64,000 nt of DNA, taken from positions 2,418,001 through 2,482,000 of the forward strand of contig OZ017756.1 in assembly GCA_963969365.1 (NCBI GenBank), in the 5' to 3' direction. Position 1 is the first letter of the stretch; each line of letters begins with the position of its first letter. A program made the position numbers and the translations under genes. Below are positions 1-64,000 of this stretch, piece after piece. The notes under the pieces were generated by a model. It ran no database searches and had not been told where the DNA came from. It saw nothing but the letters and a program-made list of their open reading frames with translations. Source of the DNA: Asterochloris sp. CNOR1. Taxonomy: Eukaryota > Chlorophyta > Trebouxiophyceae > Trebouxiales > Trebouxiaceae.

Positions 1-3000
1 GCAAGGGTGGGTCTCCTGTTGCTTATGGTATGGCAGTCGCCTTCACTTCCAAAGCGAGACTGTCTCATTGAGTTCCCAAAGAGCAATCTGCAGTCACACA
101 GCCCACCTTGGGCAGATCCTGCATTACAGGCTCCATGAGAGACGCCAACATGCACCTGAGCCCCTCCCTGTGTCCTCTCATGAAAGATCAGCAGCCCCGC
201 CCACCTTGTGGAGGTTCTCCATGACGCCAAAGCACCCTGCGCCCCCCGCTGTGTTCTTTTTAACTTGCCCACCATAGGACAAACCGCCCTGCCCACCTTG
301 TGGAGGTCCTCCATGACATAGCGCCCACTCGGCTTCAGGTCTGCAATGAAGGGCGTCCTGTCGCTGATGGTCTGGAAGTCGTCCAGCGTCAGGGGGACGT
401 CCACGGCATGGGCCATGGCCAGCAGGTGCAGCACGGCGTTGGTGGAGCCGCCGAGGGCCATGACCGTGACCATCGCATTCTCGAAGGCCTTTCGCGTCAT
501 GATGTCACGGGGTTTGATGTCGCGGCGCAGGAGCTCCAGGATTGCCCTGCAGGACAGGTTTGTGCAGGGTTTGCGTGATTACTTTGCTGCCTGCAGATGT
601 TGTGAGCAAATGCATGTGCCCGATGTTCAAGCACAGCACAATGTTGCCAGCCGCAGCAGGCACGCAGCAGCTCCTGGGTGGCCCTGCAGGCATCGCACAG
701 GGGTGCAGGCTTTTACCGCTGCAGGGGGTGCAAACGGCCGGGCAGGGGTGTTGGGGAGTGGCACTTGCTGCGCAGCATTGCCGCCGCAGGCGCTGGCACA
801 AGACCTGCTCAAAGGCTTTGGCCGGCCAACAGGGGCCTTGGCAGATTTGCAAGTGTCAAGCAGGAGAGCAGGAACAGGCTGCCAAGCTGATGTTGCAGCA
901 TTGCACTGCACGTTGTCTGTGTTCAACCTAGCAGCCCTGACCAAGATGACACTGTCATAACACAGCACTCCCCAGCTCAACTGCTGGCCAGGCTCTCTCT
1001 GAAAGTTTGCCTGGCCTGCCACATTTATGGCACCTCGTGCAGCACCCATTCTGATGGCCTTGTCCAGCCTAGCCTTCCCTAGCTGTCAGTTGCTGAGGCA
1101 GCCCACCGCCTCTGCAGTACCTTCAACATCAGGCCACAAGCACGCATTCCACGGCACTGCTGCTGCTCCACTGCTGTCCTCGCAAACCTGCACACCCCGA
1201 AGTCTCACCTGCCGGCCAGGCGGCACTCGACCTTCTTGAGAGGGTCCTCTGCGGGAACGCTGCTGCTGTAGGGCAGGCTCATGCCCAGTGCCTCTATGGC
1301 GCTGGCCATTGTGTTGGCAGTGTACATGCCGCCGCAGGCGCCGGCCCCAGGGCAGGCGTGGCGCACCACGTCCGCACGCTCCTCCTCATTCATGAGGCCG
1401 GCTGTGAAGCTGCCTGCAGCCGGGGTTGTAAACAGGCTGTGCTCAGGTGACTTGACTGTGTCGAGGTGACCTAGGTATGGGGAAAGGCATGGTGCACCGC
1501 GGAACCTTATTTGAGAGGCCGGCCACAAAGCCTGCAGGCCGGGCCTTGGCGGCAGCTTCAGAGGCGGTGGCAGCTTCAAAGGCTGCCTGAAGAGCTGGCA
1601 GGTGTGGTGCATGATGATGGGTCGCTGCTCCTTGTTCAGGCAGACCGCTGCAAAGCTGCATGTACGCAAAGGACAAAGACAGAACTCAGGTGAAGGGGAC
1701 TGCCTGGGGATTGCCTGAGGGGATCACCCAGGGGACTGCCAAGAGGGAGCTAAGGGCATCGCCAAGGGGATCAGCAACAAACAGGTGGTATCAGCTATCA
1801 GGTGCTGGAGCCTCTGCAGCAGGCAGTGAAGCTTGTGCCAGAGGCTTGCAAGCGCTGCTGCAGGCCCCTTGCCATGCAAATAAGCAGCATCTGAATCATC
1901 CTACTGGAAGGCCGCCAGCTTGTCCACAAGCCTTGAGAATGCTGTGAGGAAGCGCTGGCATATTTCAACACAAAGTGCAGTGTGAGGACCTGCAGGGCCC
2001 TCAACATAGGCTGCCACCCTTTGCACCAGCCTCGTACATGCTGCAAGAGGGGGCACATGAGTCCTGAACACTGATCCCAGTGTGTGGGCTCATGCGGCGC
2101 ACTCACCGTAGGACTGGAAGGCTGCCACAACGTCCAGGGGCTGCCCAGTCAGGCCGCTCTGCCCCGCGCGGATGGTCCCTCCATAGATCATGATGCTGGG
2201 CCTGTTCAGCCGTGCCATGGCAATGATGGTGCCAGGCATGTTCTTGTCGCACCCGGGCAGGGAGATGTTGGCATCGTACCACTGGCCCCCCATGACTGCA
2301 GGCAGCAGCAGGAGTGACGCTGTAGCATGCGCAACAAGATATGTGGAAGGATCACAGAGAGACCTTGGCGTCATACCACAGCCCGCCCATGCCTGCAGGT
2401 GGCAGCAGGATGTAGCCTGTTGCATCTGCAGCAGTAGAGCTGCAAAAAGTACAAAAAGAGTTGGCACCATATCACTGCCTGCCCATGTCTGCAGGTGGCA
2501 CCAGGAGGACTTCTGTGACATGGGCAGCAGAAAGCTACAGAGTTTGTGAGGGGTGAGGGGTGAAGGTGGCAGTGACAGGGCAGCTGTGAGGGCTGCAAAA
2601 ATGGTGTCAGTGTTCTTGCGCGGGCGCCCATGAGACTATGCAGCAGCAGGGACATGTGGATGCATGCTTTTGCATACGCCAAGCTGCATGGATCGCAATG
2701 AAACCAGGAACTAGCATCTTGAGCCCTTGTCTGACACCGGAGTGAAGCCTGCAGATCTCAAAAGGTCTAGATGACCATGAAAAAGAAGATGGCTGCCAGT
2801 GCAGCCTAGGTGTTGCCTTCCTTCCAATGCTACCCTCTTGTGCAACAGGGCTGGTTCTGCAAGACCCCCTCAGCTCATTGGGGATCATCCTGATCACATC
2901 CTGCATCCTGATCACATCCTGCAACCCACCAGTCTCGATGCTGTCGGCAATCAGGTCCCGCGACTGGAGGGAGAAGCTCATGCCATCGGTGCCCATCGAG

Positions 3001-3649
3001 ATGGCATCGCTGACCCCCACTGTGTTGAAGCGGAAGCCCACCATGTTGGCGTCCTCCACCCCAGCCTTGACCTCCGCAGCCAAGTCCATCAGATGCATGT
3101 TGCAGGGGTTGCCCTCATACCAGACTGAAGAGATGCCCACCTGCAGCAGGAAGCAAGAGGTTCATGCAAGGCTGCCCTGGCAAGATGAGGAGTTGTGGTC
3201 TCGACGAAAGGAGGCGTCAGCAGCGGTGTTGTTGCGGAGGTGCGGAAGGCGTGAGGTTGCTGAAGGGCCCAGGCTGCATGTTGATGGGGTCTGCAGCCAT
3301 GCAGACTCCAGACTGCCGGTTGGCAGATGCTGCATGGCTCAGCTTATGCAGCAGAGTACAGACCCTGCCACACCTGGGGCTTGTCCAGATCCTCCTTTGT
3401 CAACCCAGTGGCATACAGCATTGCCTGCGAGCCTCCTTGTGACTTGGGCTGTGTGATGGTGCGGCTGATTTTGTTTAGCCCTTTGACAGATGTCTCCTCT
3501 GCTGCCTGCACCATCTCCTCCAGAGGAATTAAAGTGGCCTGGGTCCGCAATGCCTCTCGGCCACTGTGCCTGCGAGCAGGTCTTGTCACACTCTGAAGAG
3601 GCTGCTGGCCGCCGCTAATGGGCAGCGTTCTGAGAGACATCTGATGCAT
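1..3649 (-). CDS. DHAD: Dihydroxy-acid dehydratase, plastid type, N-terminal part (runs off left edge)
   Basis: Catalyses dehydration of 2,3-dihydroxy-acids to 2-oxo-acids in valine, isoleucine and leucine synthesis; an iron-sulfur enzyme of the IlvD/Edd family, plastidial in plants and algae. Five exons are visible on the minus strand: 3649-3374, 3140-2930, 2295-2107, 1413-1209 and 547-297. All junctions are GT-AG and in phase. Exon 1 starts with [20 protein letters not shown], an S/T/R-rich stretch that fits a transit peptide, then reaches the conserved [11 protein letters not shown]. Exon 2 carries [11 protein letters not shown] and [20 protein letters not shown]. Exon 3 carries the family signature CDKNMPG. 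Exon 4 carries [19 protein letters not shown], and exon 5 carries [16 protein letters not shown] and [12 protein letters not shown]. The C-terminal part lies left of the window. Decayed copies of the exon 3 and exon 5 edges sit in the adjacent introns. The family assignment is secure; the transit peptide is inferred from composition and position. Confidence 0.93.
101..320 (-). repeat. Tandem copies of the DHAD exon 5 donor region
   Basis: The exon 5 end and donor (gcccaccttg at 291-300) recurs at 199-208 and 101-110. The middle copy extends for about 27 nt with very few changes and still encodes VMENLHK before a GT, against VMEDLHK in the true exon. Confidence 0.75.
2281..2500 (-). repeat. 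Three tandem copies of the DHAD exon 3 acceptor region, about 97-bp unit
   Basis: The real exon 3 start (CAT at 2291-2293) is repeated with CAT at 2388-2390 and 2484-2486. On the minus strand the second copy still reads [12 protein letters not shown] before a stop, against [12 protein letters not shown] in the true exon; the third is more decayed. Confidence 0.8.
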
Positions 3650-3960
3650 CTGCAAGTCCCTCAAGCAGCCCCGCTCGCAGATGTGCTGAGCAGATCACCC
3701 TATTGTCAGATGAGGGTGTTTACTTAATCCAAGCAAGAATGATCTTCCCCGTCCTCTACTCTAAATGCACTTGTATTGCTACGCCACCTGTTATGGTAAC
3801 CTGTGCGCAGAAGTCAAAGACGTTCAACAGAGCTTGCATGAATGAAGCTAATCTGAGTTCAACCTTGCAGCCTGCCCTTGCAGTGCAGAATACATACAGT
3901 AGTCTCAAACTGCTTGAGGTCTGTCAACGCACACGTCTCCAAGCACACTGGTCCCACACA
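3650..3960 (-). promoter_or_regulatory. Intergenic: AATF 3' end and DHAD upstream region
   Basis: About 310 bp lie between the AATF stop codon and the DHAD start, with both genes on the minus strand. The stretch must hold the AATF 3' UTR and the DHAD promoter. It is richer in A and T than the genes around it. I found no TATA box and no TGTAA signal on the minus strand, and no ORF with homology. Confidence 0.4.
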
Positions 3961-6900
3961 TCATGCCTTGATACCGAACAAATTTCTGAAGAGTTTTGGG
4001 GCCATGGCGTCGGCTGCAGCCTCCACTGGTGACATGAAACTGACCAGCTTGTCCTGCACGTGGAAGCGGAGCTTGCGCCCCTTTGAGGCACGCCGGTCCA
4101 CCTGTTTGCGACGTTTCCTGCCCTGCAGCAATGTGCAGAGTGCTTGCATCAGCAGGCCACACTGCCTCTTCAGCATAAAAGAGGCTTATGCTCCTGCAGC
4201 AATGTGCAGAGCATTTGCATCCACAAACCACTTTTGTGCTCGTGAACAAAGGCTCTTGCGCCCTCTGCGTGTCAAGGCAGACTCCTGGCAGTATCCAGGG
4301 CTGTATGCTGCGCGGTCGACACACATCCTGGAGGCAGTCACCTCCCAGGCGCTTTGGATTGGCTCTGCCTTATAGCTGTAGCGAGGCACCAGACTGAAAT
4401 ACGAATTGTGAGCAAGGCCTGGCTCTCTTCACCTCTGCGCCAGGCAAACCTGGTCAGACCTAACTGGACAATTAGACAAGGCCTTGCCCCTCATGCTGCA
4501 CTGTGCTGAACCCAAAGCTATGCTGAGCTACAGTACTCACCCAAGCAGGAGTGGTCCCGCAGTGCATTGTGCTGAGCCACAGAACCCCTCTGGAAGCAGT
4601 GCACAAGGCCTGCCCATGCAATACTGTTGATGCCCTGCAACTTTCCAGATGTCCACACAGCCCAGGCGCCCCAATGCTGCAGTTGCTGGATGGTGGCTTG
4701 AGCCCAGGCGCTTATTGTTGGCACCTGAGCAGTATGGACGAGGCCTGGCCCCGCAGATCCGGTGGCCTCCAGGAACTCCTTCAGCAGCTGAGCATAGAAC
4801 TCAGCGTCATCAAAGGTCTCGTTGTTGGGCTCGACCGCTCCCGTCGGTGCTGTGGCTGTGGCAACGCCTGCCTCGACTGCCTGCTGGAGGGGCTGCTCAG
4901 CGGCACTGGCTGCTGGGGCCTGCCAGTGGCCGGGCGCACAGAGTACACGGGGCCGGTCTGTCCCGCTGAGGGCTGTGCGCTGGACAGCTTTGTCGGAGCT
5001 GCGCAGCAGGGCAGCAACCTGGCTGCTCACGCTCTGGTTCAGGGCGCGCAGGTTGCCGCGGCTGACGATGCCGCCAGAGGCCAGCATTGTTTTGCGATGC
5101 CACCTGCAGACGTGGCGGTGCATGACCTGAAGCCCCGACGAGTGTTCATGTTTGTTCAGCAATGCTGCCCTGTCGGATGCGACATGATCACTTCAGGGCA
5201 CGCAGACAGGGTGGTGCTGTCCAGTGTGACCTAAATCCAGGTCTGCAGGTGCCAGGCAGCCGGTTGCACAAGACGCCTCTGTTTGTACCAGGGTGTAATG
5301 GTGAGATCAGCCTCGAGGCGTAACGTGTGCGCTGCCAGCAAGCTGTTCTCCAGGCTTGTCACGGGTCACTGAAGCCTCACCTGTCCACACTGGCATCCCG
5401 AAAGGGGGCAAGAAGCCTGTAAGCCTCATCAATGCGCTGCCACTTGCGTTCTGGCACGCTGCCCTCGTTCCCCTGATCGTTCTCTGGCGCTGCTGCCTCC
5501 CGGCCACGCTTCCTGCCGGCAGTGCCATTGGCAAGAGGGGCAGTCCCGTTGGCCTCAGGCGCATGGCCATTGGGCAGCCCAGTGCCTTGACTGGGCGGAG
5601 CTGCAGCCGCTGCTGCGGCCACAGCCTCGGCGGCAGCAGGGTGCTGCCCAATCAGGGCAGCTTGCAGCTCCAGGAGGCTGTCCAGAGTGGATGAGGCTGC
5701 CTGGCTGACCTCAGAGTAGGCCGTTGCGACGCCGCTGTCCGCTGCGCAGCAGATGGGCTGCAGGGCCGCTGGTGGTAGCTGGTGCGCCGCCTGCATAGCA
5801 GATGGGGCAGACTATGTATGTGTGAATGCTTATGAAAGATGAAGAGGCAAATTATGAAAGCGACCTGTGCTGCAATCATGGGGACTGGCAGCACATGTAC
5901 CATCGTGTATTGTAGTGGTGTCTGTGCAGCACCTGAGCAAAATCTGTCTAGTCTATCATGGAGGGTGCAGCCTCAGCTCAGGGCTAGCCATAACTTCCCT
6001 TCAAGCTGCCACAGCTTTCCTTCAGGCTGCCATAAGGTCATCAATCTGCGTACCAGATGCACGCAGCTAGTGTCATCATGCGTGTAGCGCTATTTCCTCA
6101 TCTCAGTCTGCCTTGCATGCCCGACCCCAACCTATGCAGGCTCCACTCTGCAAGACGCAGCGCTGCAGCAGGATGTGCAGCTACGGCGCATGCCTGAGCA
6201 AGGTGCAGCTCTGCCTACATGGTGTGTCTCAATCTGCTGGCGCGCTGCCAGGCATGTGCAGCTGAGAAGCTGCCCCTTGCCCAAGACCCCACCTGAAGGC
6301 AGCGCTGCAGCATGATCCGCAGCTGCAGCGCGTTTTCCCACACGCGACACTGATTGGCCACTGCAGCCCCCTTGCGCTGCTGCTTCTGCTGGCGCTGATG
6401 CAGACCATCCGTCAGCCCTGCATCCTGTGCAGCCAGCTGGGCGTACTCCTGGTCCAGGGCAGCCAGCTCAGCATCATCTGCAGACAGGGCACGTTTCATC
6501 TGCATATGTGCTCCTCACTGGAGGGGGCCGTGCCAGAAGCACAGGCACAGGTGGCTTCGCTAAGCCGTGCTGGTTTGCAGCTGCATCTGAAGCAGGCAGC
6601 ACCCTTCAGCATACCCTGACTTTGGGACTGGTCGACCTTACCTCGACACCTGCTGTGCCAACTTGCCTGAGTTGCACTGTGCAGCTCTGCAGGCAGAAGA
6701 GAGCACAGATTGTGCAGCATACATGCTGAGCACCACGCCGGGGGCGCGGGCGCTGCCTGCCCACCTGCTCCGCCGTTGCCTTGGTAGCTGGGCAGCTCAG
6801 GCTGCACATCTGCCTCTGCCTCCTCGTCAGTGGCCCCCAGGTTGGTGGGCTCCTCAGATGCTTCGCTGCCAGAGGCCTGAGAAGCAAAGCCTGCCTCTTC

Positions 6901-7884: not shown

Positions 7885-8056
7885 GGTGTCAGGTTTGCTT
7901 CAGTGACAGCAATCTCATTGGACTCATGCCGCCCAATTTTTCTTGAATAGGTCAAGATCAGCAGAAGACAAGTAAGTGGAAGGTTCTGCAGACCTCTGTG
8001 TGTGCCAACAAGGCTCGTGGGCACAGTTCAGCGTCTGGCATGCTGCTGATGTTTAC
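7885..8056. promoter_or_regulatory. Putative bidirectional promoter, AATF / TFB4
   Basis: Only about 170 bp separate the divergent start codons of AATF (minus) and TFB4 (plus), so both promoters must overlap here unless a 5' UTR intron exists. I see no clear TATA box. Calling it a promoter follows from geometry alone. Confidence 0.5.
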
Positions 8057-10456: not shown

Positions 10457-13400
10457 ATGTTGCTGGCACATAAGGTCAACCTGCACTGACACCGGCTCTT
10501 ATGATGTCGTTGCCTGCGTGCAGAGTATAGACTGGTGGCCAAGAAGGGCGAAGGCACCTTCTCAGAGGTGCTCAAGGCCCAATGCATCAAGAACAGCAAG
10601 TATGTGGCCATAAAGTGCATGAAGAACCACTTCGACAGCCTGGAGCAGGTGAGCCGCTGGCTCCAACACTCGTCGCAGCTTGGCAGCGCTGCTTGCAGAG
10701 GTCTGTCCTGGCATACTCTTGTATCAGCAGGGGGACTCAAGTGCAGGCTGCAGCGCAGTAACAGAAAGCCTAAGGACTAAAGCTGGAGGAGGAAACTAAA
10801 ATTTGCTGTGACATCAAGCAGGCTGCACCTCTCTGCAAGGCGGCTCGTGCATACCATGCCCAGCAGGCAGCAAATGGCATGGGCCCAGCAATGCCCCATG
10901 CAGAAGACATGGCCGACTTGGCGCATCACTGCTGCAGGTGAACAACCTGCGCGAGATCCAAGCGTTGCGGCGACTGTCCCCCCACCAGAACATCATCAAG
11001 CTCCTGGAAGTGCTCTAGTGAGCGCATCTGTCTGCCTGGGCTGTGTGACTGGGGGGCTGTGCTTGCTGGGCTGAGCCAGCATGACCACCGATTCATTGCT
11101 GTGGGGATCCCTGTTTGGCTGTCCGAGCTTGTCTTCCCCTGGTGGCCCGCCAGTGCATGGCCATCTTGACACATTGGCACATGAGATGCTGAAGCTGACA
11201 CAAAGTCCAGCACTCCCCTGCCTGCTCCGCAGCAGTGACCTGCGCGTTGGGTAGACACTAGCATCATAGGTTCAGTGCGACACCAGCTCCTACTTTCTTG
11301 ACGGTAGTGACCAATCAACATGCCTCCTGGCCCCTGTTTTAAGCTAATGAGCATGGGAAGCTGCCTTTGGCACCACAGCTCAGCACGGTCCCCTGCCCTC
11401 TCTGGTGCAGTGACCAGCCGACAGGGCGCCTGGCCCTTGTGTTTGAGCTGATGGACATGAACATCTACGAGCTGATTCGGGGGCGCAGCCACTACGTGGC
11501 GGAGGAGCGCACCAAGCGCTACATGTGGCAGCTGCTCAAAGCGATGGACCACATGCATCGCAACGGCATCTTTCATAGGTGGGGCACAGTCACAGCGCCA
11601 TTGCTTTGGGCAGGAGGGCCTGCGGGCTTTTGGGCAGCCCCTTGATGTTTCGAATGGCTGTTCTACTGGGGTAGGGTGCTGCTTGGCACATAGACCATTC
11701 AGTAGTGCTGTGGAGCAATGAGCATGCACGACCTCCTGTGGAGCCTGCAGGCACACACCAATCGACATGCTTTCTGGTGGGCTGAAGCTGATCCCGCAAA
11801 GCAATTTAGACTCCATAGCTGTGGGCATCCTCGTGCTGTGTTAGATCAGTGGCAGCTTTGTCACTGGCAATGCCGCAACCAAGGCAGCCACCAGTTGCAT
11901 CAAAGCAGGGTACCTGGGCCAGGCTCATGTCTACCCTGCTGTTTCTGCAACCAATCCTGCACACCCGGGCAGTGCTTTCAAGGATGCCAAAGCTGCAGAG
12001 CTACTCAGTCCAGACGCTTTGTTGTGATGCGGAGTGATGGCCCCTCACGCCCTGTTGCTCTCCTGTCACACTTGCAAAATCCTTTGCGCCCTTCAGGGAC
12101 ATCAAGCCGGAGAACATCCTGATTATCGATGAGTGCCTCAAGCTGGCAGACTTTGGCAGCTGCCGGGGGATCTACAGCAAGCAGCCGTACACAGAGTACA
12201 TCTCCACGCGGTGGTATCGCGCCCCGGAGTGCCTCCTGACAGATGGTTACTACACTCAGAAGATGGACATGTGGGGTGTGGGCTGCGTCTTCTTTGAAGT
12301 GAGCGTGCAAAGGATGCAACAGGATTCTGGGTGATTGTGTGGTGTCAATTTCTCCCGGCAGGGCAAGGCCAAAGACTACTTGCCCTGTGCATACATGTGC
12401 CCCTGTTGGACGGCACTTACAAGATGGGCATGTGGGGATGGGACTTGATGACCATGTTGTGAAAGCTGCCTCACCCTCAGTTCCAAGCCTCGCTGCAAGT
12501 TGCGCTTCGGCCATTGCATTGGGCCACAAGGAGCGACCTTGGGCCCGCTAAAACCTCGATTGCAATGCCGAGCCTGTGGGTGCCAGCATGATTGCATGCA
12601 GACACAGCCCACCACTTCAGTTAGTGCCTGCAAGAAATCCCCTGCTCACCCCGGGGGAGCTCAGCATCTGGGGCTGCATGCCAAGAGGCAACTGAGCGGG
12701 TGACCCTCTCATCTGACTGTCCCGGCAGGTACTCAGCCTGCTTCCCTGACTCCAATAGGCTGCTCACAGAGCCTCACTGCACAGGCCTCACTACCCCCAT
12801 GCCACCATGCCGCTCGTGCAGGTGGTGAGCTTGTTTCCCCTGTTCCCTGGCACCAACGAGATGGACCAGATAGAGAAAATCCACGCAATCATGGGAACGC
12901 CGCCTCCCGAGGTGCTGGCGCGTATGAAGAAGCACTCAACCCACATCGAGTACGACTTCAACCCCAAGGTGGGCAGCAGCCATGCTGTCACGGCAAGGCG
13001 GCATCCTGCCTGCATGAGCTGGGGTTTCAAGCTGGTCTGGGCTGCATATTGTGGTCTTGAAGCGTGTCCTATTGCTTGCGGGGGCAGCTGTTTGGCCTTG
13101 GAGCAGGAGAGCACTGCATATAGCACTTCACCCTCACCGAGTACAGCTCTGACCCCCAGGATGACACCACTGCTGAGATCAGTGCTTGAGACACATCAGC
13201 AAAGGGGTCATGCACTGAAGCTGCTGCCCTGGTATCCGCTGATGCCCACACAGTGGCCAGGGTGGCCTGCCAGCACTGCAAGCCGCTGGAGATTTGTAAC
13301 TGGGAGGAGGGGGCAGCGCTGTGCTGCCAAGAGCTGCTGTATGAAAGCACGCAAGTCTGGCAGGTTCGAGTGTCTGTGCTCTGCCAACACGGCAGTCTTC

Positions 13401-16211
13401 AGAGGCCCTGTAGGAGCAGCTGGAAGCCTTGCACTAGCAGCAGGCACCTGCCTCAGAGCTCTGGCAGGGATGGCTGTGTATGCTCTGTCAAGACTCCCCT
13501 TGCTGAAGGTCACTCTTACTGTTGGATTCTGAGTTCGTACAGCTGGAAGGCTTGCAGTAGCAGTAGGCACCTGCCTGAGAGCGCTGGCAGCCCCGGGTGT
13601 GTGTGCAGTACCCAGCCGCTGCATTGCTGGCACTACGGCCTCTCCTTACAGCCTTCGAAAGCTGGATCGCGCTGGTGCTGCCACAGCTGCCTGCAGGTAT
13701 CTCCCACAACAGCATGTCGGTGCACAAGTCAAGCTCACCTGAGAGCTCATCAGCAGCAGGGATGACGCAGCACCGGAGCACACAGATGGCAGGGCTGTCA
13801 AGCATTCCCCAGTTGTGCACTTCACTGCTTGGCTTGCTGCCTGCAGGATGGCAGTGGGCTTGCAAAACTGATACCCCACCTGAACCCTGAGGGTGTAGAC
13901 TTGATACAGAAGCTGCTCATCTATGACCCCGACCAGCGACTGTCGGCGCGGCAAGCGCTGCGGCACCCCTACTTCCGGGAGTTCAGGTGAGTTCTCAGCA
14001 CCAGCTCTGCGCTGTCCGATGCTGTCCCCACTTCTGGAAGTTCTTGTGTATGTCTGATGCGGTGCTGCTGTCAAGAGCACAGGTGGGCTCCTGTTGCCGG
14101 CTGCTATGCTGCTCTGTGAGCTGGAAGACCCTGCCAGCCTGTCTTGCACAGCAGTGCAGGCACAGACGACATGCCGGCCCGCACAGTCTGCCCAAGCACT
14201 ATTGCTTACAGCCTGTTGCAAACCCTCACAGGGAGCAGCAGCAGCAAGACTACCCTGCCAGCTCTTTCGTGTTGCTCACTCTACACCATGCCTGCGGGCA
14301 GGAGGGGTCACACAGCCTGTCCACGTACACTACTCACTGCATGCTGGCTGGCCTCTTGTGTAGTTGGTTAGTGAGGTGAATTTATGAGTCATGCCGGTCT
14401 GCAGGGAGGAGGAGCGGCGGCGGGAGGCGGCCGCCCAGGCAGAGCCCCCCAGCGTGCACACATTCCTCAACACGGTGGGGCGCCAGAAGCTGGCCAACGG
14501 GAACCAGTCTGCGCGGCGGCGGCCCCAGGTGAGGAGCCGCATGGGTGGTGCATGCAGCAGATTTGAAAGGAAGTGGGCTGCCAGGCGTGTGCAGGGCGGA
14601 GGGCGCGTGAGCAGTGTTGAAGAGTCCATGCAATAGGCAGCACCAAGTAAAACCTCATCTTGTATATTTTCAGCCCTTATAGTAAATGGTGGTTCGGAGT
14701 GCGTGAAGGAAAGAGTCCATGACAGGTGCTTTGCAAGCTAGGAGGAGGCCAGCATGCTGCTTTTTGTGAGGTGCGAGGGTGTGGGCTGCCTGCAGCAGGC
14801 CGCAAGTGGTGCTGGCAAATCTGAGTGGTGACAGCCCGCAGCAACATGGCCTGTGGCCCATGCAATCCGAGGGGTGAAGGATGGGTCCTCTGCCTCAAAC
14901 ACTATGCAGCAGCAGCTTATTGTTGGCTAGCTCAATCTGAACGACCACCTTGGAGCTTCCTGTACAAGCCCTTCTTGGCTGGCTGCTGCAGGCGCAGGCA
15001 GAGGGTGGCGGCGCAGGCACCAAGGAGGGGGGCCTGCCCAGCATTGTGGGCAGCAACCGGCCGCGGGAGGAGCGGGACTCTGAGGCAGGCCAGCAGCAGC
15101 ATAGTCACCAGCTAGCAGGTCAGGGCAAGTCTTGGCTGGCACATGGCAAGGGTGGTTTGTGAGTGGCTCTGCGTGTCTGCTGCACGCTGGAGGGCTGCTT
15201 GCTGCAGCAGCTGCATAGCCACCAGCTACCCGGACAGGCCTGCTGCAACATGCATTGGCTGCGTGCAGCACCTGAGCGGCAACTGATCAGGGGGCAGTGC
15301 CTAGGAAGTCTGCTTTGCTGAATAATTGCCAGGGTGTTGATATTGATGTTTGTGTGTGCCTGCAAAGGGCAGAGCTGTCAAAGCGGGGCCACCTGCCGCC
15401 AGTCAAGACTGGGGCAGGTGGTTGCTGTGACCATGGACTGCTGGCTGGCCTTGGACTGTTGACTCGTGTTGGCAACATGAAAGCAGACAGGCAGTGGAAG
15501 CATGGTGTGGCGGGAGTCGCAGCCAATGTTGTGCAACCTAGCCCCTCATAAGTGGTGACTCACTGGGGCAGTTGCGGGTTGCCACAGTAGCCCTCTGGTC
15601 ACACAGTGCAGCATCTAGACTTGCTGTGCTCCTCTGGCCCTGAGTGCTGCACTTTCATTTTGCTGTGCTTAACATGCAGCTGCCCGAGCAGGCACAAAGT
15701 GCATGTAGGGCTGGCCAGGCAGCAGCCCGATGGGGAGCTGACAGGCAGCCAGGCATCTTCGCTTGTTGTCCAGTCTCCATGTCGCCCAAGCAGGCACCGG
15801 CTGCCTGCAGGTCTGGCGCGGCAGCAGTTGGACGCAGCAGCAGGCAGTGGAGTGGCCGGCCCTGGGGCCTCCCAGTTCCCTGCCCTGGGGGTCAGCAACA
15901 GTAGCAATGCTGTGCTCAGCCCAATCGCCAGCAAGGTGCTCAGCCACCGTGTGCCCATGGGTGGGGGGTACATGCAGAACTACAGCCACAGCAAGCAGGT
16001 GCCAGCCAAGGCTGGAAGCTTAGTGGGCAGCAACTCGAAATTCGCAAAGGGCGCCATGCCCAGCAATCCCAACCCCCGCAGCTCAGCGCTGCGGGGGAAG
16101 TATCCCCGCGCCAGCGCAATAAGCACAGTTGCTCCGGTCCTCAGCACCAAGAGCAAGCCCTACATCTCCCCTTACAGCCAGCAGGTCATGAACACGCTGC
16201 GTGAATCCTGA
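10456..16211 (+). repeat. Decayed tandem copies of exon edges in MOK introns
   Basis: Intron segments resembling the adjacent exon edge: 11306-11355 (exon 4 start, 11409-11460), 12420-12465 (exon 5 end, 12260-12304), 12725-12762 (exon 6 start, 12818-12857), 14012-14047 (exon 7 end, 13955-13988), 15205-15238 (exon 9 end, 15091-15124) and 15678-15733 (exon 10 start, 15779-15834). Spacing is 60-160 bp. A further intron-only pair is 13422-13480 and 13540-13600. Confidence 0.75.
10457..16211 (+). CDS. MOK: MOK-type (MAK/ICK/MOK family) protein kinase
   Basis: Serine/threonine kinase of the RCK group (MAK, ICK, MOK), which in ciliated eukaryotes regulates cilium length and transport. Exons: 10457-10474 (tentative), 10526-10648, 10938-11017, 11411-11578, 12097-12298, 12822-12968, 13847-13986, 14405-14528, 14992-15118 and 15811-16211; from exon 2 on the phases agree. 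The glycine loop is KKGEGTFSEV and the lysine motif VAIKCMK; MOK-specific VNNLREIQALRRL and ELMDMNIYELIRG follow. HRDIKPEN spans the exon 4/5 junction. DFG is at 12149-12157. The activation loop SKQPYTEYISTRWYRAPE holds the TEY dual-phosphorylation motif (12190-12198). The domain ends near LRHPYFREF. The tail is basic and Ser/Pro-rich and ends QVMNTLRES. MOK is favoured over MAK/ICK by the YSKQPYTEY loop. The first exon (MLLAHK, with a short cagag acceptor) is uncertain. Confidence 0.9.
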
Positions 16212-16560: not shown

Positions 16561-18262
16561 ATGCGGAGAGCACCGCAAATAGTCTCACGGGGCACCAGGC
16601 AGCTGGAGAGCCTGACTGTACGTCACTCTGAAAGCACTCTGAAGCAGACCGAGATCGTGAACCCCAACCTTGCCAGGTCTGAATCAACCCAAATGCTGGC
16701 ATCAAGCATCCTATGGCAATCTACTGTAAGGGTTGGTCCCCCTTGTCAGCAGTCTGATATTGGCTCTGCTTGTGCAGGGATGGCAGCATTGAAGCACCCG
16801 CAGGGAACCTCTTTGAAGAGGCCGCTGGCATGACTGTGCCGTCTGCTCTGCCCATGGTGGCATCTGTGCAGGGTGAGGCAGCTGCGCAAGCCCAGCACTT
16901 TGCCCAACAGCCCTGGCAACCCTGCAGCATGGTCGCCTCTTGCATTACATATCATCATGGCGTGCGCTGTGCACTCCGCCCACTCTGCTACTTGCTTGCC
17001 TGCAGATGAGGTTGCCACTAAGCTGCCCACTCTGTCGCTGGTCCCCCAGGGCTTTATGGAGGCCCCAGCAGGTTCAGCAGGGGCCAGTCTGGAGGCCGCA
17101 AAGCTGCCCACTCTGTCGCTGGGCCCCCAGGGCTTCATGGAGGCCCCAGCAAGCTCAGCAGGGGCCAGTCTGGAGGCAGTCACCTCCCTGCTGCCGCGGA
17201 GCATCCAGGGAGCCATGATGCAGTGCATGGCCAGCGGGGACGACAGCAACAAGGGCGGCGGCTTTGAGCGCAAGGCCCCGGAGGACAGCCCTCCAGACCA
17301 GGTCAGCCTGCGAGCGACTGGCTGTGGACAATGGAAGCTTGTTTCATGCCTTGACCATGCCTGGGACAGGGGACAGCTGCCATACCAGGTCCAGCTCCAT
17401 GACAAAAGTGACCGCTGCCAAGTGCCCTGACCAGATGGGTGCAGCTTGAATGCATTTGCCAGATCGGGACAGGGGACAGGTGCTGAATGCTCTGGGCAGA
17501 TCTGGCCCTGAGATGTTGTCAGTACTGGTCCCTTGCAGTGCTTGAGCACATAGCAGGGGGGTTGCACACAAGTGTAGCTACAGCAGTTCTGACATGCAGC
17601 ATCTGCCTCACACCAGCCCACTGCGCTGCCCCCTGCTGTCAGCACCATGCACATGCAGCATCGCCGTGTCAGGCAGTGCAACTGCTGTACTCACCCTCAT
17701 GCAGCAGCATCTCACACCCTCTCTCAAGGAACAGAAAATCTGCTGCCACTCTCTGGCACTGCACATAACTCTTGAGAGACACTGTGGTGAGGCAAGCTTT
17801 GTGCCAGATTGCGAAGGCTCAGCTGCTGACATTTGGTGGACTGGCCTGACTTCAGCATGTCCCTGATGCAGCCTAGTGGCGGCTTAAGGCAGGACGTGCC
17901 AGCAGTGAAGCCAGGCATGGAGGGCAATGGCGTGCCGCCCAGCCCTGACGCTGCCAATTCAGAGGTGAGCTGCTCTGCTACATCTACATGCAGCATGACC
18001 GGTGCTCCTCAGGACAGCAGGCTGTACACAGCACTGGGACTGTTGCCTGCTGTGTTGTGCTCTCAAGCAGCGTTGTCCGCATGCTGCAAAAGCAACCTGA
18101 GCCTTGCACATGCCCCTGCAGATTGACAGGTCGGACTACTCGGCACCTGGCAGCAACCCTGATGTACCAAATGACACCAGCAAGGAGGATCTTGAGCCTG
18201 GCAAGGAGGCTAAGGAGGATGTCAAAAAACGCAGCAAGACAGGCAAGGGAGTCGTGTCTTGA
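16561..18262 (+). CDS. Uncharacterised protein, about 246 aa, with in-frame tandem repeat
   Basis: I do not recognise this protein. A five-exon model closes in phase: 16561-16676, 16778-16872, 17006-17301, 17872-17964 and 18122-18262, each with GT-AG borders; the total is 741 nt including the stop. It begins MRRAPQIVSRGTRQLESLTV. The middle holds two tandem 27-residue units starting KLPTLSLVPQGFMEAPAG and KLPTLSLGPQGFMEAPAS, followed by LLPRSIQGAMMQCMASG. The C-terminus is charged (SKEDLEPGKEAKEDVKKRSK) and ends GKGVVS. No signal peptide, membrane segment or known domain is visible, and the composition suggests a largely disordered protein. Support for coding is the phase agreement over four introns and a TGTAA signal 85 nt after the stop. 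The long fourth intron (17302-17871) could hide a further exon. Confidence 0.6.
17020..17178 (+). repeat. 81-bp in-frame coding tandem repeat, two copies
   Basis: Unit 1 is 17020-17100 and unit 2 is 17101-17178, in the third exon of the unnamed gene. The copies differ at only a few positions, and the 81-bp unit keeps the reading frame (27 codons). A shorter match (gcccactctg) also lies just before the exon, near 16979. Confidence 0.9.
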
Positions 18263-48000: not shown

Positions 48001-51000
48001 CTGTGGCATGTCTCAAGCACAGTCACGTACCCGCTGAGAATGCTATGCACCTCCATGATTCCATGAGTCAGGCTGGTCGCATTGCAGAGCTGTGACAGAG
48101 GGCATGCTGCTGCAGGCATGGTGGAGGTTTGGCTGCAGAAGCTGGTGGATGGCATGCAGGGCACCGTCAAGGCCACCATCAAGCGCGCCTACAGGAATGT
48201 GCAGGAGATGGCCCTTGAGGACTTCATCTTCAGCCATCCTGCACAGATTGCACTGCTGGGCATCCAGTTCCAGTGGACAGGCGACACACAGGTCAGCTGC
48301 TGCATGGAGCTGAGTGACTTGACTGAGGAACAGGGTACAGGGCCAGCTGGGATGATAGGTGCCTGTCATATCCATGCTTGGTGTGTGTGGGCTCAGCAGG
48401 TGCAGGTCTTGTCCCAGGCTGTGCTGCGGCGAATGCTTTCAGTGACATACTGGTCAGCTGCTGCAAGACAAATTCCATATGCTGCACTGCCAAGACCTGG
48501 GTTCAAGGCATGCCCAGCATAAGCCCAAACTGGGCCCTCTGCTGGGGATCTTTGCCGTGTGAGGATAGATCAGTACCAATGCGCTGGCACAGTGGGGCTA
48601 CATGCTGGGGCAGGCAGTGCCGCATGTTGATGCTCAGCTTGGGACAGTTGTGGCGTTTGCAGCTGCAGGTCTTTGCTGCCCGTGGTCACAGCGGTTGTGC
48701 AGTGTTCTGGCATCTTTCGCATGTGTTGTGCCAGCTGTGCTGAGGTCTGCAGCAGTCTGCTGCAGGCTGCCCTGGTCCAAGCGCGCACTGACAAATCCAT
48801 CATGTCCAAGAACATGAAGAAGACAGAGGCCATTCTGCGAGAAATGGTGATGATCACGCTGCGGACTGAGTTGACAAAGATTCAGCGGACCAACCTCGAG
48901 ACCTGCATCACCATCCACATGCACCAGAAGGAGTCCACAGGTCAGCCTCTGTTGTGGCAGGCATGCAGTGGAGGTGCTCGGAGATGTGTCAGTTGCTCAA
49001 GTGGAAGCTGCTGTGTGCAGCTGTGGTCTGGAAAAGACAGATGTTTTGCAGTGTGTGCAATCGCAGATTGCCAGCGGCGCAGCCGGCCTACTCTGCACAA
49101 TGAAGCAGCCCAGCTGGCGGTGTGCTGGCGCAGATTGCGCTGCAGTGGTGCTGCTGGCTGCTGGGCATTGCTCAAGAGCTGTCACGGGATGCTGATGCCC
49201 TGCTTGCAGAGGAGCTGATGCAGACCATCACAGTGCAATTTAACAGCCGAAGTCAGCAGCAGAGGCCGCGCCTTGCAAGCAGACTGATTGGAGGCCACCC
49301 TTGTTCTGCCTGCAGAGGAGCTGGTGAAGCACAAGATCAAGGACCCCACCGACTTTGAGTGGCTCAAGCAGGCGCGCTTCTACTGGCGCGAGGACAAGGA
49401 CACTGTCATCATTTCCATCTGCGACGTGGACTTTGAGTACTCCTACGAGTACCTGGGCGTCAAGGAGCGGCTGGTCGTCACGCCGCTGACCGACATCTGC
49501 TATGTGACCTTGTCCCAGGCGTTGGGCATGTTCTTGGGAGGGGCCCCTGCAGGGCCCGCTGGGACTGGCAAGACAGAGACCACCAAGGTCCGTACACTGG
49601 CAGAGTGCTGCTTCCCAGGTGCATTGAGAGCACCTGCAGTTTGCCCGGTGTGGCAGCTTGGCACGTGCGCTGGCCTCAGCACGCCCCTCTGCGACCTCCT
49701 GCCCTGTTCAAACTTGGGCGAGGGCCACAAGTTTGGCGTACTCAGCGGGGTCTGAGAGTTTCAGCTGATCCTGGTCTGCACTTGCAGGACCTCGGGAACA
49801 CCCTGGGCAAGTATGTCGTAGTCTTCAACTGCTCAGACCAAATGGACTACAAGGGCATGGGCAAGATCTACAAGGGTCTGGCACAGAGTGGCCTGTGGGG
49901 CTGCTTTGACGAGTTCAACCGCATCAACCTGGATGTGCTGTCTGTGTGCGCCCAGCAGGTGAGGCAGGGGCTCTGCCGCTGCACTCTTCTGGACATCTGG
50001 TTCTTGCCAGGCCATTTGATTGGCTGCAGAGCATACACTTTTGCTGCATGCTGTCAGGCGGAGCAGCTGAGTGGCAGCAACTCGCAACAACCTCCTTGAC
50101 GCCACAAGCGCATCGCTGTTGCTCTTGGGCAGTCCTTTAGAGCAATGCATGCAGACCTGGCAAGCAGAGGGCACAGCAGGTGCTGGTGACCACGGCAGTC
50201 ACATTGGCTTCCACATGCATCAAAGTACTGCTGTGCCTGCAGGTGTACTGTGTTCTGAGCGCCATTCGCGAGCGCAAGAAGCAGTTCCTCTTCACAGACG
50301 GCAGCCTGGTCAGCCTGGACTCGCGTGTGGGCTTCTTTATTACCATGAACCCTGGCTACGCTGGCAGGCAGGAGCTGCCAGAGAACCTCAAGGTGTGTCG
50401 CCTGTCACTCAAAGTTGCTGCTGCAGCTGCATCGAGTGTTAAGTCTCCCTGTTCCCCTCCTTGCAAATCAGTATATCAGGTATAAGGTATTGAGAGGTTC
50501 TTCATTGTGGTTCAGATCAGGGCTGTGCCTTATGCTCACTGGTGTCTTTGGCCCCTGCAGGCTCTGTTCAGGGGTGTGACCATGATGGTGCCCAACAGGC
50601 AGATCATCATGAAGGTCAAGCTGGCCGCCTGTGGGTTCCAGGAGAATGACATCCTCTCCAAGAAGTTCTTTGTCCTTTACGGCCTCTGCGAGCAGCAGCT
50701 GTCCAAGCAGGCGCACTACGACTTTGGCCTGCGCAACATCCTGTCTGTGCTGCGCACGGCTGGAGCTGCCAAGCGAGCCAGCCCTGACAAGTGAGTAAAT
50801 GATGCTTCTGTAGACTTTTCAAAGCTGTCTTGTCAGGTCGTGCAGAGTGCCGGCTGCTACCAGTCTGAACATAGCTGCCATTTGACTGGCTTACACACTG
50901 TTGCAGGTCTGAGATCTTCCTCATGATGCGCTGCCTGCGCGACATGAACATGTCCAAGTTTGTGGCAGAGGACGTGCCCCTGTTCCTTTCCCTCATTGAT

Positions 51001-54000: not shown

Positions 54001-57000
54001 GTCAGCTTGGAAGGCAGCAGCTGCGTGAGAGCGGCGTGCTAAGCTGTTGGTATGACTGACAGACACAGTGTGCTGCAGATATGTGGCTGCCATGAATGTG
54101 CCCGGTGGTGGCAAGAATGATATCCCCAACAGACTCAAGCGCCAGTTTGCCATCTTCAATGTGCCCCTGCCATCAACGGCTGCCATCAACAATATCTTTG
54201 GGGCGCTTGTCAAGGTGCGCAGCTGTCAGATCACAGGGCGATACAGCCCCAAAACAGCTTACCAGCATGTCTGCCCAGCTTGCGAAATGCTGCAGCTGGG
54301 TAGAGCTGTTTGACTAGTCCCAGTGCTGTTGCCCAAAGGACTTCTGTCAAGAAGACTTTGCCTGGCAGGCAGCTGAGGCTCTGAATCTGATTGGAGTGGA
54401 GCTGCGCAGACTCACACTGGCATCAAAGCTGTGCAGGGTCGCTTTGACAGCGACACCTTCACAGCTGACGTGGTGGAGGTGGCCAAGAAGCTGGTGCCGC
54501 TGACTGTGACCCTGTGGAACAAGGTCTCCATCAAAATGCTGCCCACTCCCGCCAAGTTCCACTACCTCTTCAACATGCGCGAGCTGTCCAAGGTACTCCA
54601 ATATCTGCCTGCCTGTGCTGTCTGCTTGCAAGAGGGGTTGCAGGTTCAGCAGGAGATCATATGCTACAAGAGACAAGGTCTGGCCCAATGGTGTGCTGTC
54701 TGTTGGGTGCAGCAGCACCCTTATCCTGCATTGAGCAGATGCTCAGCTGGCCCCAGAGGGTCCTATTGAGCTGAAGCTGACTAGGCAACACACGTTGGGT
54801 GCAGGTGTTCCAGGGTGTCATCCTGGCGTCGCGGGACCGTTTTCAGAAGAACAGCCCCCTGGGCGGCCTGCCTCCCTTTGGTGGCAGCGTGACCAGCCCT
54901 GAGGGGTACCTGCTGGCTCTGTGGGTCCACGAGTGTCAGCGTGTGTTCAGTGACAAGATGATCACTCTGGAGGACAAGGGCTGGATCGACGGCGCCATCA
55001 AGGAGCTATGCAAATCCAACTTTGTGCCAGAATTGGTCAAGCAGGTTCGTGCAATGCTGATCACCCCAGCAAGCACCCGAGCGCACCACATCAACATACT
55101 CATTTATGTAGCATCCGTGCAGCTGTTGGCAGCTGACACTGCATACTGTTGCCTGCCTCTGATCTCCTGCACAGCATGAGAGCGCCATAGTGAGAAGCAA
55201 CTACGTCTAAGTTGCGGCAGCTTGCTTTGATTGAGAGCACCCTGCCTTCAGTGAATGCCTGACGCCCCACGCTGCAGCTGTGCATGCACACTTCTACCTT
55301 GCTATAGGTCGAGGAGCCACTGTACTTTGTCGACTTCCTGCGCGAGCCCATCACCGACAACGAGACTGGCGAGGTCATTGACGCCCACCCCTCCTTCTAT
55401 GAGTCGGTACCCAGCGGCCTGCCAGACATCCGCAAGCGCGTGGAAGCCCTGCAGCGCAAGTTCAACGAGGAGTCCAAGGCGGTCAAACTGGAGCTGGTCC
55501 TGTTCACGGACGCGCTTATGCACATGATGCGCATCAGCCGCCTGCTGGCCATGGACCGTGGGTCTGCGCTGCTGGTCGGCGTGGGTGGCTCGGGCAAGCA
55601 GTCGCTTTCACGCCTGGCGGCGTACATTGCAGGTGGGTGGCTGTGATGCCGTGGAGTCTTGAAGGCTGCAACAGCTTTCTGCAGGTGTGTCGGTCATGTG
55701 CTTGAGCACTGCTTGATGCAGGCTTGTCAACGCTTGCTAGAGCAGTAGAATGAAAAGCCTTGTTGGCAACCTAGAGGTCAGGAGGGTGGTTGTGGTGCTG
55801 CAGTGGCCTTGCATGCAGAAGCGGCCTCCTGCAGCTCTGCATTTGCATATGGCATGTGTTAGGTCACCGCTTGGGGCAGACCTGTCAATGGCTGCCTGTA
55901 CACCTGCGCCTGCTGCATGTCTGGCGGCCCACATTGCGCATCATATTTGCTGTGTCACAGCAGTGGCTTTGAATGCAGTGGCAGCCTTCTACCTCTCTCT
56001 ACCTAGGAATGCAGTGTGTTTGGGCTCAGCTTTGCATAGGCCTGACAATCCATGCTTCGCTGCGCTCACCACAGCCTCCAGCATGGGGCTGCATAGGACT
56101 AAGCTCCATGAGCCTGCCTGCAGGAGCCTACCCCTTCCAGATCACTGTCACCAAGACCTACAACATCACCAACCTGTTTGATGACATCAAGGCCCTGTAC
56201 AAGATTGCTGGATACAAGGGGCAGCCCGTCGCCTTCATCTTCACTGACAGCGAAGTGAAGGAGGAAGGCTTCCTTGAGTATATCAATCAGGTGGGCCATC
56301 AGGTTGCAAGGTATGTCCTCTGTGGACAGCAGGACTCACATTCCAAAGTTTCATGCTGGCAGCTGCAGCACTGTACGTGCTTTTGTTCGCTGTCTCAGGC
56401 ATGTTTGCTGGCCTGTGATTTTTGCTGCTGCTTTATAGACAACAGGTGAAGCTATACCTGCCAATTTTGACCAGGCATTTGGGTGGGCGCCTTCGGCTAG
56501 ACGAGAGAAGGCAGCGGGGTGGAGGCCACTGCGCTCCTGTGCAAGGCCCCATCGCTGGCCTGTGTGTGTGCTGCTGTTCTGTGCCTCGAGCAGCACAGCT
56601 GACGCAGCAGCTGAAGCAGCGCCTGATCTTTGCTGGACTCTGATCAGTGTCACTGCTCTACATCAGCTGCAGCGCAGCTGCAGGGGTGCTGCATTTGAAC
56701 CAGTAAACCAATGTTGCGAGTAACAGTGGTTGCCGTGTGTGCCTGCAGATCTTGATGACAGGCGAGGTTGCAGGTCTGTTCCCTAAGGAGGAGCTCGATG
56801 TCATCGTCAATGACATGAGGCCCATCATGAAGGCTGAGGCTCCAGGCAAGCGTCCACCCTGTGCTTCATGGCACAGCACAGCGCGCTTCTCTCATGCACG
56901 CTGTTCCTTGCCTCTTGCAGCAGTATGGCAGCTGTGCTGCAGCCTTTTTGGAGAACTTTTCCATTGCTCCACCCCAGCCAGGTCTTCGTCGCAAAGGGCG

Positions 57001-63000: not shown

Positions 63001-64000
63001 ACTGCAGCATCTCTGCGCTGAGCTGAGTGCAGATGGGCTTTGGTGACACTGGCTGTGCCCGAGATGTGATCAGGAGCATTTGCTCTCTGAGGCACCGTTG
63101 CGCACGCCTGCAGGCTTTCAGGGAGGACAGGACCCTCATTGCAGCGGCAGACTACATTGCCGAAGCACTGGGTCAGCGCTTTGTGGAGTCTGTGCCCCTC
63201 AACATGGAGCGTGCCTGGGCTGAGAGTCACCGCAAGTGCCCTCTCATCTGTCTGCTGTCACCTGGAGCAGATCCCACAAAGCTCATTGAGGTGGGCCTGC
63301 CAGTTGCGGCATCATTGTGCATGTCATCAGGATGAGTGGGGTTGCCTTCCTGCACTCCTGCAGCATCTCTTTACATAGTATGACTCAGGACTGTGCTTTC
63401 TTGTCTGGCTCTAGTGAGACTCACCATGCGCACTTCTGGGCTGCAGCAATCTTGTAACTGCCCCTGCAGGACTTGGCAAAGAAGAAGAAGATCAAGACGC
63501 TAGGAGTCAGCATGGGTCAGGGCCAGGAGATCATTGCCCGAAAGTACATGGCGACTGCCACTGTAGAGGGGCAGTGGGTTCTGCTCCAGAACACCCACCT
63601 GGGTTTGAGCTACCTCACAGAGGTGTGCATGTCTGACAGCTGTCTGCCATCCTGTGCATCTGCCAGCACAAGGATGCAAGCAGGGCAGTTAAACTAACTT
63701 GCACGAGGATTGCATGTCAGCAATGCTATCCCTGATCAAAGCAGCTACCCACACAGCAGCAAGCAAGCATGCAGCCAGGCAAGGGTTCACGGTGGCACGC
63801 CCACCTAGTGGGAGTGCAGGAGGGGCACATCAAATTGAGTCGCTGATTCAAACCACTGCTGCAGGTGGAGCAGTACCTGGTAAAGGCTGAGGAGGTGCAT
63901 GAGGACTTCCGCCTCTGGATCACAGCCGAGCCCCACCCCAGCTTCCCCATTGGGCTGCTCCAGATGGGCATCAAGATCACCAATGAGGCGCCTGTGGGCA
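36065..64000 (+). CDS. ODA2: Outer-arm dynein heavy chain, gamma (ODA2/DNAH5-DNAH8) class, C-terminus beyond window
   Basis: Motor subunit of the ciliary outer dynein arm. About 70 exons on the plus strand join by GT-AG introns. The first are 36065-36103 ([13 protein letters not shown]), 36189-36238, 36417-36486, 36616-36669, 36830-37045 and 37289 to about 37533. The start is the first ATG and fits the family (xLDxRHxxL). Domain order is complete: tail (N1), linker (N2), AAA1-AAA4 each with a P-loop, stalk with microtubule-binding tip, AAA5 and most of AAA6. The window stops in the exon reading [20 protein letters not shown], so only the C-terminal region is missing. Placement in the gamma class rests on the N-terminus, on tail motifs such as [20 protein letters not shown] and [20 protein letters not shown], and on co-linearity with DNAH5/8; it is from memory, not a tree. 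No in-frame stop was found in the exons examined. Confidence 0.88.
37289..44160 (+). other. Dynein tail (DHC_N1) coding region
   Basis: Exons for the heavy-chain tail, which assembles the outer arm by binding intermediate chains and neighbouring heavy chains. Landmarks in order: [93 protein letters not shown] and [17 protein letters not shown]. The order agrees with DNAH5-type tails throughout. Confidence 0.85.
45072..45171 (+). repeat. Direct repeat in a dynein intron
   Basis: A 25-bp exact repeat (core cttgctgctgcggagaggtg) occurs near 45072-45096 and 45147-45171, a 75-bp offset, in the intron between the exons ending KKFQQMFE and starting [11 protein letters not shown]. Confidence 0.85.
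45815..48938 (+). other. Dynein linker (DHC_N2) coding region
   Basis: Exons for the linker that swings across the AAA ring. Landmarks: [115 protein letters not shown] and [17 protein letters not shown]. Confidence 0.88.
49316..50789 (+). other. Dynein AAA1 (main ATPase site)
   Basis: The principal hydrolysis site. Walker A GPAGTGKT is at 49552-49575, preceded by [14 protein letters not shown]. Walker B CFDEFN is at 49902-49919 ([18 protein letters not shown]). The exons after it carry [20 protein letters not shown] and [20 protein letters not shown]. All catalytic residues expected of an active AAA1 are present. Confidence 0.93.
51220..52090 (+). other. Dynein AAA2
   Basis: Walker A GPAGSGKS is at 51318-51341. 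The following exons carry [38 protein letters not shown] and [16 protein letters not shown], all in the family order. Confidence 0.9.
53287..53852 (+). other. Dynein AAA3
   Basis: Walker A GGPGTAKT is at 53301-53324. Walker [10 protein letters not shown] is near 53707-53733, followed by [23 protein letters not shown]3 is the regulatory nucleotide site; both motifs are intact. Confidence 0.9.
55310..56290 (+). other. Dynein AAA4
   Basis: Walker A GVGGSGKQ is at 55578-55601. After an intron of about 490 bp, the next exon carries [20 protein letters not shown] and Walker [20 protein letters not shown]. Confidence 0.9.
57628..59440 (+). other. Dynein stalk coiled coil and microtubule-binding tip
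   Basis: Coiled coil 1 runs from about 57760 to 58350 ([40 protein letters not shown]). The microtubule-binding tip follows ([15 protein letters not shown], then about 58613-58880 with [20 protein letters not shown]). Coiled coil 2 runs to about 59440 ([40 protein letters not shown]). The heptad character of both strands is visible. Confidence 0.88.
59767..64000 (+). other. Dynein AAA5 and AAA6, partial
   Basis: AAA5 begins with [20 protein letters not shown] and [23 protein letters not shown]6 exons carry [58 protein letters not shown] and [17 protein letters not shown]. The window cuts the last exon; the C-terminal domain is outside. Confidence 0.88.

Follow-up and report, generated by a model that had tools for sequence, protein, structure and literature searches.

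In a stretch of 64,000 nucleotides from the green alga Asterochloris sp. CNOR1 (assembly GCA_963969365.1, contig OZ017756.1, positions 2,418,001 to 2,482,000; hereafter the window), predicted introns carry diverged copies of the edges of their own neighboring exons more often than expected by chance. These intronic copies are probably explained by a known kind of short duplication, tandem or patch, together with a survival bias. An earlier sequence-only reading of the window had reported such copies in the introns of five genes (named DHAD, AATF, MOK, CABIN1 and dynein), and we found them in all five. The names MOK and CABIN1 are taken from that reading; Pfam supports only a kinase and a TPR protein for these two genes.

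The sequence sampled was 324 kb of one genome: the window, a 200-kb stretch of contig 1 (c1) and a 60-kb stretch of contig 4 (c4). Dispersed matches were searched for in 56.4 Mb (21 contigs). Splice sites are ab initio predictions of a gene finder trained on the window and c1, which at convergence gave 81 genes and 655 introns (median length 178 bp) with the consensus donor CAG|GTGAGC and acceptor CTGCAG|G. In these introns the acceptor was strict, the T, G and C before AG having frequencies of 0.91, 0.93 and 0.97, and GC donors made up about 4%. The c4 stretch was decoded with parameters from outside c4, which yielded 143 introns. Pfam assigned a family to each of the seven predicted proteins or protein parts submitted (AATF-Che1 and TRAUB, protein kinase, TPR, fatty acid hydroxylase, AMMECR1, Tfb4 and DHC_N1), the fatty acid hydroxylase match being below the family cut-off. 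Some predicted exon-intron boundaries are wrong, since 44 of the 798 predicted introns fall below 45 bp and 160 adjoin an exon of less than 20 bp. Known gene-model artefacts, including a DHAD acceptor match at 1990-2106, stay within the pooled counts.

The basic match used here was an alignment in direct orientation with a score of at least 18. By this measure, 29 of 729 exon ends matched their own intron, versus 1.5 by random pairing, as did 14 of 729 exon starts (0.9 by random pairing). In the reverse-complement control only one exon end and one exon start of 729 did so, which ruled out inverted duplication. The excess was present in each stretch: exon ends gave 8/136 versus 0.3 in the window, 16/461 versus 0.77 in c1 and 5/132 versus 0.40 in c4, and exon starts gave 4/136 versus 0.2, 8/461 versus 0.53 and 2/132 versus 0.17, respectively. 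The two reverse-complement matches, one of an exon end and one of an exon start, both came from c1, and the window and c4 had none. Therefore, in the comparison with random exon pairs and for composition that the sequence-only reading had proposed, similarity of window introns to their own exons was clearly higher than to random ones.

A scan of the sequence itself gave a similar picture. At offsets of 20-319 bp, the window contained 58 ungapped direct segments scoring at least 18 (22 of them supplied by one CAGGG array), versus none at each of four distant offset ranges. After simple repeats were removed and overlapping matches at offsets of 20-419 were merged, the window had 27 duplications, c1 had 67 and c4 had 29, with 0-2 per range at distant offsets (0 and 1 for the window alone). 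An identical scan of 50 kb of Escherichia coli K-12 yielded two duplications, and a fourth-order Markov copy of c1 yielded none. The density had been thought unusual for one 64-kb window; it is not peculiar to the window, which is ordinary among the three stretches, their duplication densities being alike.

The duplications are direct and local, and similarity is lost with distance. Shared 10-mers were enriched 5.4-fold at offsets of 20-40, 2.6-fold at 40-60, 5.9-fold at 60-80, 6.3-fold at 80-100, 4.4-fold at 100-130, 3.6-fold at 130-160 and 1.9-fold at 160-200, versus 1.1-fold at 200-250 and 1.2-1.3-fold at 250-1000. The excess is thus local and near baseline beyond 200 bp.

The possibility that all of this is an artefact of composition or splice motifs in CTGCAG-rich sequence has one point in its favor: with the splice motif masked, 27 of the 59 matches that span an exon-intron border fell below 18. 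The other 32 survived masking, and the random-pair, reverse-complement, distant-offset and fourth-order Markov controls were all near zero. These controls refute such an artefact as the full explanation, and we consider it very improbable.

Border position and fate of the spare copies

The clearest case is the three-copy acceptor array of the DHAD gene, whose product is closest to chloroplast-type plant enzymes in alignments to plant DHAD structures. Two regions of this gene are of interest:

101..318, minus strand: DHAD exon end with its donor (CACAAG|GTGGGC at 297/296) and two intron copies
2258..2530, minus strand: DHAD acceptor and exon start in three copies, spaced about 97 bp

In the acceptor array, the most 3' copy (2296) fits the protein, and the other two, about 97 and 193 bp upstream, are intronic and run into stops. 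The gene finder had divided the intron at the middle acceptor copy, which adds residues foreign to plant DHAD. Because plant DHAD has no insertion at the resulting mini-exon (2393-2425), we read the intron as 2296-2929. At the donor side, the exon ending at 297 falls inside the protein that aligns to the plant structures. Its first intron copy (194-225, offset 92) is 94% identical over 32 bp, the second lies at 101-128 (offset about 190), and GTGGGC is retained at the donor position in all three copies. Two other predicted DHAD exons, 1498-1655 and 1905-1989, cover a stretch without counterpart in plant DHAD and are probably false; the acceptor match at 1990-2106 was therefore excluded as a finding.

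The position of the used border, as predicted, followed a simple rule. Of 66 events with a border within a copy, 42 had the border only in the outer copy, five only in the inner copy and 19 in both, versus 16.8, 17.0 and 3.5 under a shifted-annotation null. When introns of at least 60 bp with both exons of at least 40 bp were considered, the corresponding numbers were 25, 3 and 3, and with splice motifs also masked (threshold 16) they were 19, 2 and 1. The predicted used splice site therefore appears to be mostly the outer one, so that the extra copy falls within the intron. Since the gene finder follows coding potential and cannot observe splicing, this outer-site rule, observed here in gene models, describes which copy still codes.

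The spare donors decay near-neutrally: in outward cases, GT was kept in 18 of 31 copied donors versus a neutral expectation of 20.4. In inward cases, donor GT was kept in five of ten (6.2 expected) and acceptor AG in 10 of 11 (7.3 expected). No sign of faster-than-neutral removal of spare sites was seen in GT and AG retention of outward and inward copies. Where both copies of a duplication were coding (window and c1), the offset was divisible by three in seven of eight cases, versus 6/25 and 14/61 of the others.

Taken together, the following course of events is suggested. Segments of a few tens to about 200 bp would be duplicated nearby in direct orientation, as in all three sampled stretches, and their size, orientation and locality point to error-prone repair, at staggered breaks or at nearby nicks, as the most likely cause. 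The duplication itself could be blind to splicing. Within coding sequence, selection would purge most duplications unless their length is divisible by three. A duplication spanning a border would carry its own splice site, and if the outer site is used, the protein is unchanged and the spare copy becomes intronic and may decay neutrally. Introns would in this way lengthen by taking up copies of the exon edges beside them. Copies that span a border should also stay recognizable longer than purely intronic ones, because the protein holds one side still. The earlier proposal that local duplication creates redundant splice sites, of which one copy decays with net intron lengthening, is supported by these data.

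Related processes are described in several reports. In rice, tandem, partly tandem and non-tandem copies arise within 200 bp of a break (Vaughn and Bennetzen 2014, summarized in PMC7407515), and the offset limit near 200 bp observed here resembles these break-repair duplications. The rice cases are inferred insertions, whereas ours are the remnants of decayed copies in a single genome of another lineage, classed by their relation to splice sites. Fill-in by CST/Pol alpha-primase followed by end joining produces small direct tandem duplications at staggered 3'-ended breaks, and the duplications found here, which are likewise small and direct, may also originate in repair; that route was demonstrated in human and mouse cells, the report speaking of insertions below 100 bp (PMC8355091). 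In the potato RdRp gene, an intron is reported to have been gained by tandem duplication across an intron-exon border (PMC4974935). As in our cases, that duplication spans the boundary and carries splice signals, but it made a new intron, whereas in our cases an existing intron mostly takes in the spare copy. For near-intron pairs of Drosophila, novel positions have been attributed to sliding or tandem duplication (PMC2891723). There, too, duplicated exonic sequence beside splice sites feeds intron change; the surrounding duplicated sequence is reported to be no longer conserved and the new positions are inferred, whereas the copies survive here. A literature search, which covered few subscription papers, gave no report of such a pattern in an alga among the matches listed. 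The process is of a known kind, and what is new is the outer-site rule and how often such duplications occur in this genome. Arguments about the origin of intron sequence and the movement of splice sites usually rest on rare examples. In the 324 kb sampled, 59 of 112 catalogued duplications with an offset of at least 40 carry a predicted border inside a copy, which would allow the rule that the outer site is kept and the spare copy becomes intron to be tested in bulk.

Misfits of the duplication-and-survival explanation and its alternatives

Several observations weigh against the explanation by duplication and survival, and they are gathered here. The first is the abundance of borders. Copies contained 15 borders in the window, versus 7.7 (standard deviation 2.1) under shifted placement, and 36 in c1, versus 19.0 (standard deviation 3.8), and none of 300 shifts reached the observed count in either stretch. 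Border-involving and purely intronic duplications numbered 79 and 26, a ratio of 3.0; forward simulation with ages starting from zero gave only 1.4-1.5 with exon constraint and 1.0 without. When simulated copies were aged at least 0.2 substitutions per site per copy, the ratio was 4.6-5.6, and with ages of 0.1-0.4 it was 1.7. After splice-motif masking, the observed ratio was 48 to 24, or 2.0. The two-fold border excess is in part due to splice motifs lifting or extending alignments. Exon-side conservation and age can account for the number of border copies, but not well for their shape. In the old-age simulations the aligned part missed the border about twice as often as it contained it, and the masked data showed the opposite (16 with the border outside the aligned part, 32 inside). 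Because this proportion is reversed, the fit of the old-age simulation is imperfect, and there may be some splice-linked excess.

One reading of this abundance is that duplication is aimed at splice junctions, for example through nicks or R-loops linked to transcription and splicing. The roughly two-fold excess over shifted placement, the surplus of border copies over the zero-age simulation and the frequent containment of the border compared with old-age simulations would all agree with it. However, the masked ratio is within the simulated range, and the position of borders along the copies (9, 15, 19, 25 and 14 in five bins; window and c1) indicates that splice sites do not mark where copies begin or end. 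Some duplications are purely intronic and some purely coding. Targeting of this kind is unlikely in our view. A stronger version of the duplication hypothesis is about as unlikely, or slightly more so: that in this lineage repeated exon-edge duplication with the outer splice site kept is a main way in which introns lengthen, that intron ends are layered former borders, that junctions may attract breaks and that there was a past burst, which the age distribution suggests.

The second difficulty concerns the shape of the copies. Among 102 duplications with an offset of at least 60, the best ungapped segment fell short of the offset by at least 40 bp in 84, and only 18 were near full-unit copies. 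These short-segment copies could be either old full-unit tandems or many short spaced copies. Flank similarity was raised in 25% of the 84 (7% by chance), and the gapped score exceeded all ten own nulls in 31 of 102; gapped whole-unit alignment left tandem and spaced copies unseparated for most matches. Simulated full-unit tandems with ages of 0.2-0.5 and moderate indels resembled the data in median score (22 versus 24 observed), full-unit share (0.22 versus 0.20 observed), lengths and flanks. They contained 153 10-mer matches in 90 detected cases, fewer per case than observed near catalogued duplications (429 matches; 88 of these duplications have offsets of 60-250), and it is therefore likely that copies of different ages, or tandem together with short spaced copies, are mixed here. 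The suggestion that the process is continuing is doubtful: a few copies are young, with about 93% identity, but overall scores and lengths fit simulated ages of 0.2-0.5 better than simulations in which young copies are included.

The third set of points concerns the splice sites. Borders lay in both copies in the 19 events noted above, many of which are likely model faults, and the gene finder itself could favor outer sites where copies have decayed. In addition, copied acceptors in outward cases kept AG in 25 of 31 versus 19.7 expected. This retention, somewhat above neutral, and the near identity of some pairs, such as the DHAD donor, would be expected if duplicate splice sites were kept as useful, whether for alternative splicing or as insurance. 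On the other hand, copied donors decay as expected and the DHAD acceptor copies run into stops, and retention for use appears improbable.

It had also been proposed that introns arise anew in this way, that is, by tandem duplication of AGGT-bearing exon segments, with the observed copies as remnants of that origin. Donor CAG|GTGAGC and acceptor CTGCAG|G do have CAG|G in common, similarity between the donor and acceptor flanks of the same intron was found in six of 630 introns versus 1.7 (ungapped score at least 8), and the gapped combined score was at least 22 in 16 of 729 (5.5 expected) and at least 24 in five (1.5 expected). However, a strong in-register signature was present in one of 630 introns, which is the DHAD gene-model error, and flanks in register with an offset equal to the intron length, as a duplicated AGGT should leave, were otherwise seen only as the modest excess just given. 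Ten introns were inspected, most of them chosen for register matches or an offset close to intron length and two for a long copy or the involvement of both borders, and none was convincing. A micro-exon or a multi-copy array underlies at least three of the top cases (c1 96614, c1 122515 and c4 57961); the remaining ones are weak and ambiguous, and some of the ten resist dismissal. We therefore reject intron gain by AGGT duplication as a general explanation and regard it as a quite improbable source of the copies, although intron gain is not thereby absent from the genome.

Finally, mobile introner-like elements or dispersed repeats might have inserted across introns; a massive recent intron invasion is reported for the green alga Micromonas (PMC3879977). 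In our data, similarity links a border to its own intron and not to other introns, and the sharing of 10-mers falls to near baseline beyond 200 bp. Each of three stretches, of which two were whole introns and the third an intron plus part of its exon, matched only itself in the 56.4 Mb, in a search that skips very common words, and many related copies in different introns were thus not found for the three stretches tested. Such elements are an extremely improbable source.

Other loci in the window

In addition to DHAD, the following duplications were identified in the window:

6157..6331, minus strand: AATF/Che-1 (by Pfam family) exon end 6299-6331 and copy 6157-6189 in the next intron, offset 142, donor 6292
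11306..11443, plus strand: kinase (by Pfam kinase domain) acceptor and exon start 11409-11443 and copy 11306-11340, offset 103, border 11410
12253..12437, plus strand: kinase exon end 12253-12276 and intron copy 12414-12437, offset 161
12931..13169, plus strand: kinase exon end and donor 12931-12978 and decayed intron copy 13122-13169, offset 191, border 12969
13417..13606, plus strand: kinase, duplication entirely intronic, 67 bp, 84% identity, offset 123
15091..15238, plus strand: kinase exon end and donor 15091-15124 and copy 15205-15238, offset 114, border 15119
17014..17177, plus strand: in-frame 81-bp tandem duplication in a predicted coding exon, a 27-residue repeat
22730..22874, minus strand: TPR gene, 69-bp (23-codon) duplication in a continuous open frame
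24588..24732, minus strand: TPR gene (the CABIN1 named above), exon start and intron copy, acceptor side 24620, offset 112
28604..28708, minus strand: TPR exon end 28675-28708 and intron copy 28604-28637, offset 71
31330..31498, minus strand: TPR acceptor region and intron copy, offset 128, border 31353
41368..41547, plus strand: outer-arm dynein exon end and donor 41368-41395 and copy 41520-41547, offset 152, border 41384
48283..48465, plus strand: dynein exon end and donor with intron copy, offset 161, border 48292
55678..56049, plus strand: dynein, duplications wholly within predicted intron 55633-56123, offsets 158 and 160

In the kinase gene, the copied donor at 15205-15238 has lost its GT, and for the copied exon end at the 12299 border, where exon continuity was checked, the aligned part ends short of the donor. 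The alignment likewise ends before the donor for the TPR exon end at the 28669 border. A region of this gene made up of an intron and part of the adjoining exon (28469-28740) matches itself alone in the genome.

Both in-frame repeats that had been pointed out in coding sequence were recovered: the 81-bp repeat is real, and the 69-bp repeat lies in a continuous open frame, the 30-bp 'introns' predicted within it being taken to be artefacts. A further duplication at 21560-21767 (offset 135) was omitted from the features above, because the intron modeled at this place is 39 bp long and the repeat is perhaps coding. The CAGGG array is a microsatellite of about 29 copies (27445-27589) within predicted TPR exon 27159-27621, which may be coding or a gene-model fault.

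The dynein has its closest counterpart in the outer-arm gamma chain of 7kzm, which we take to be a Chlamydomonas entry; together with the chloroplast-type DHAD, this gene content suggests a flagellated green alga. The protein over the 41384 junction aligns to that chain (7kzm_C) without a gap at the junction. The gene finder split this outer-arm dynein gamma-like heavy chain into two genes (36065-45973 and 46159-64000), and both models are probably one gene extending past the window.

Two loci of c1 were also observed. A duplication of 79 bp with an acceptor (c1 112562-112729, at 1112562-1112729 of contig 1; 93% over 89 bp) appears young and presents two near-identical acceptors. In another gene, c1 122349-122771 contains about three copies of a coding-plus-donor unit, part exon and part intron, which may be an exon array in the making.

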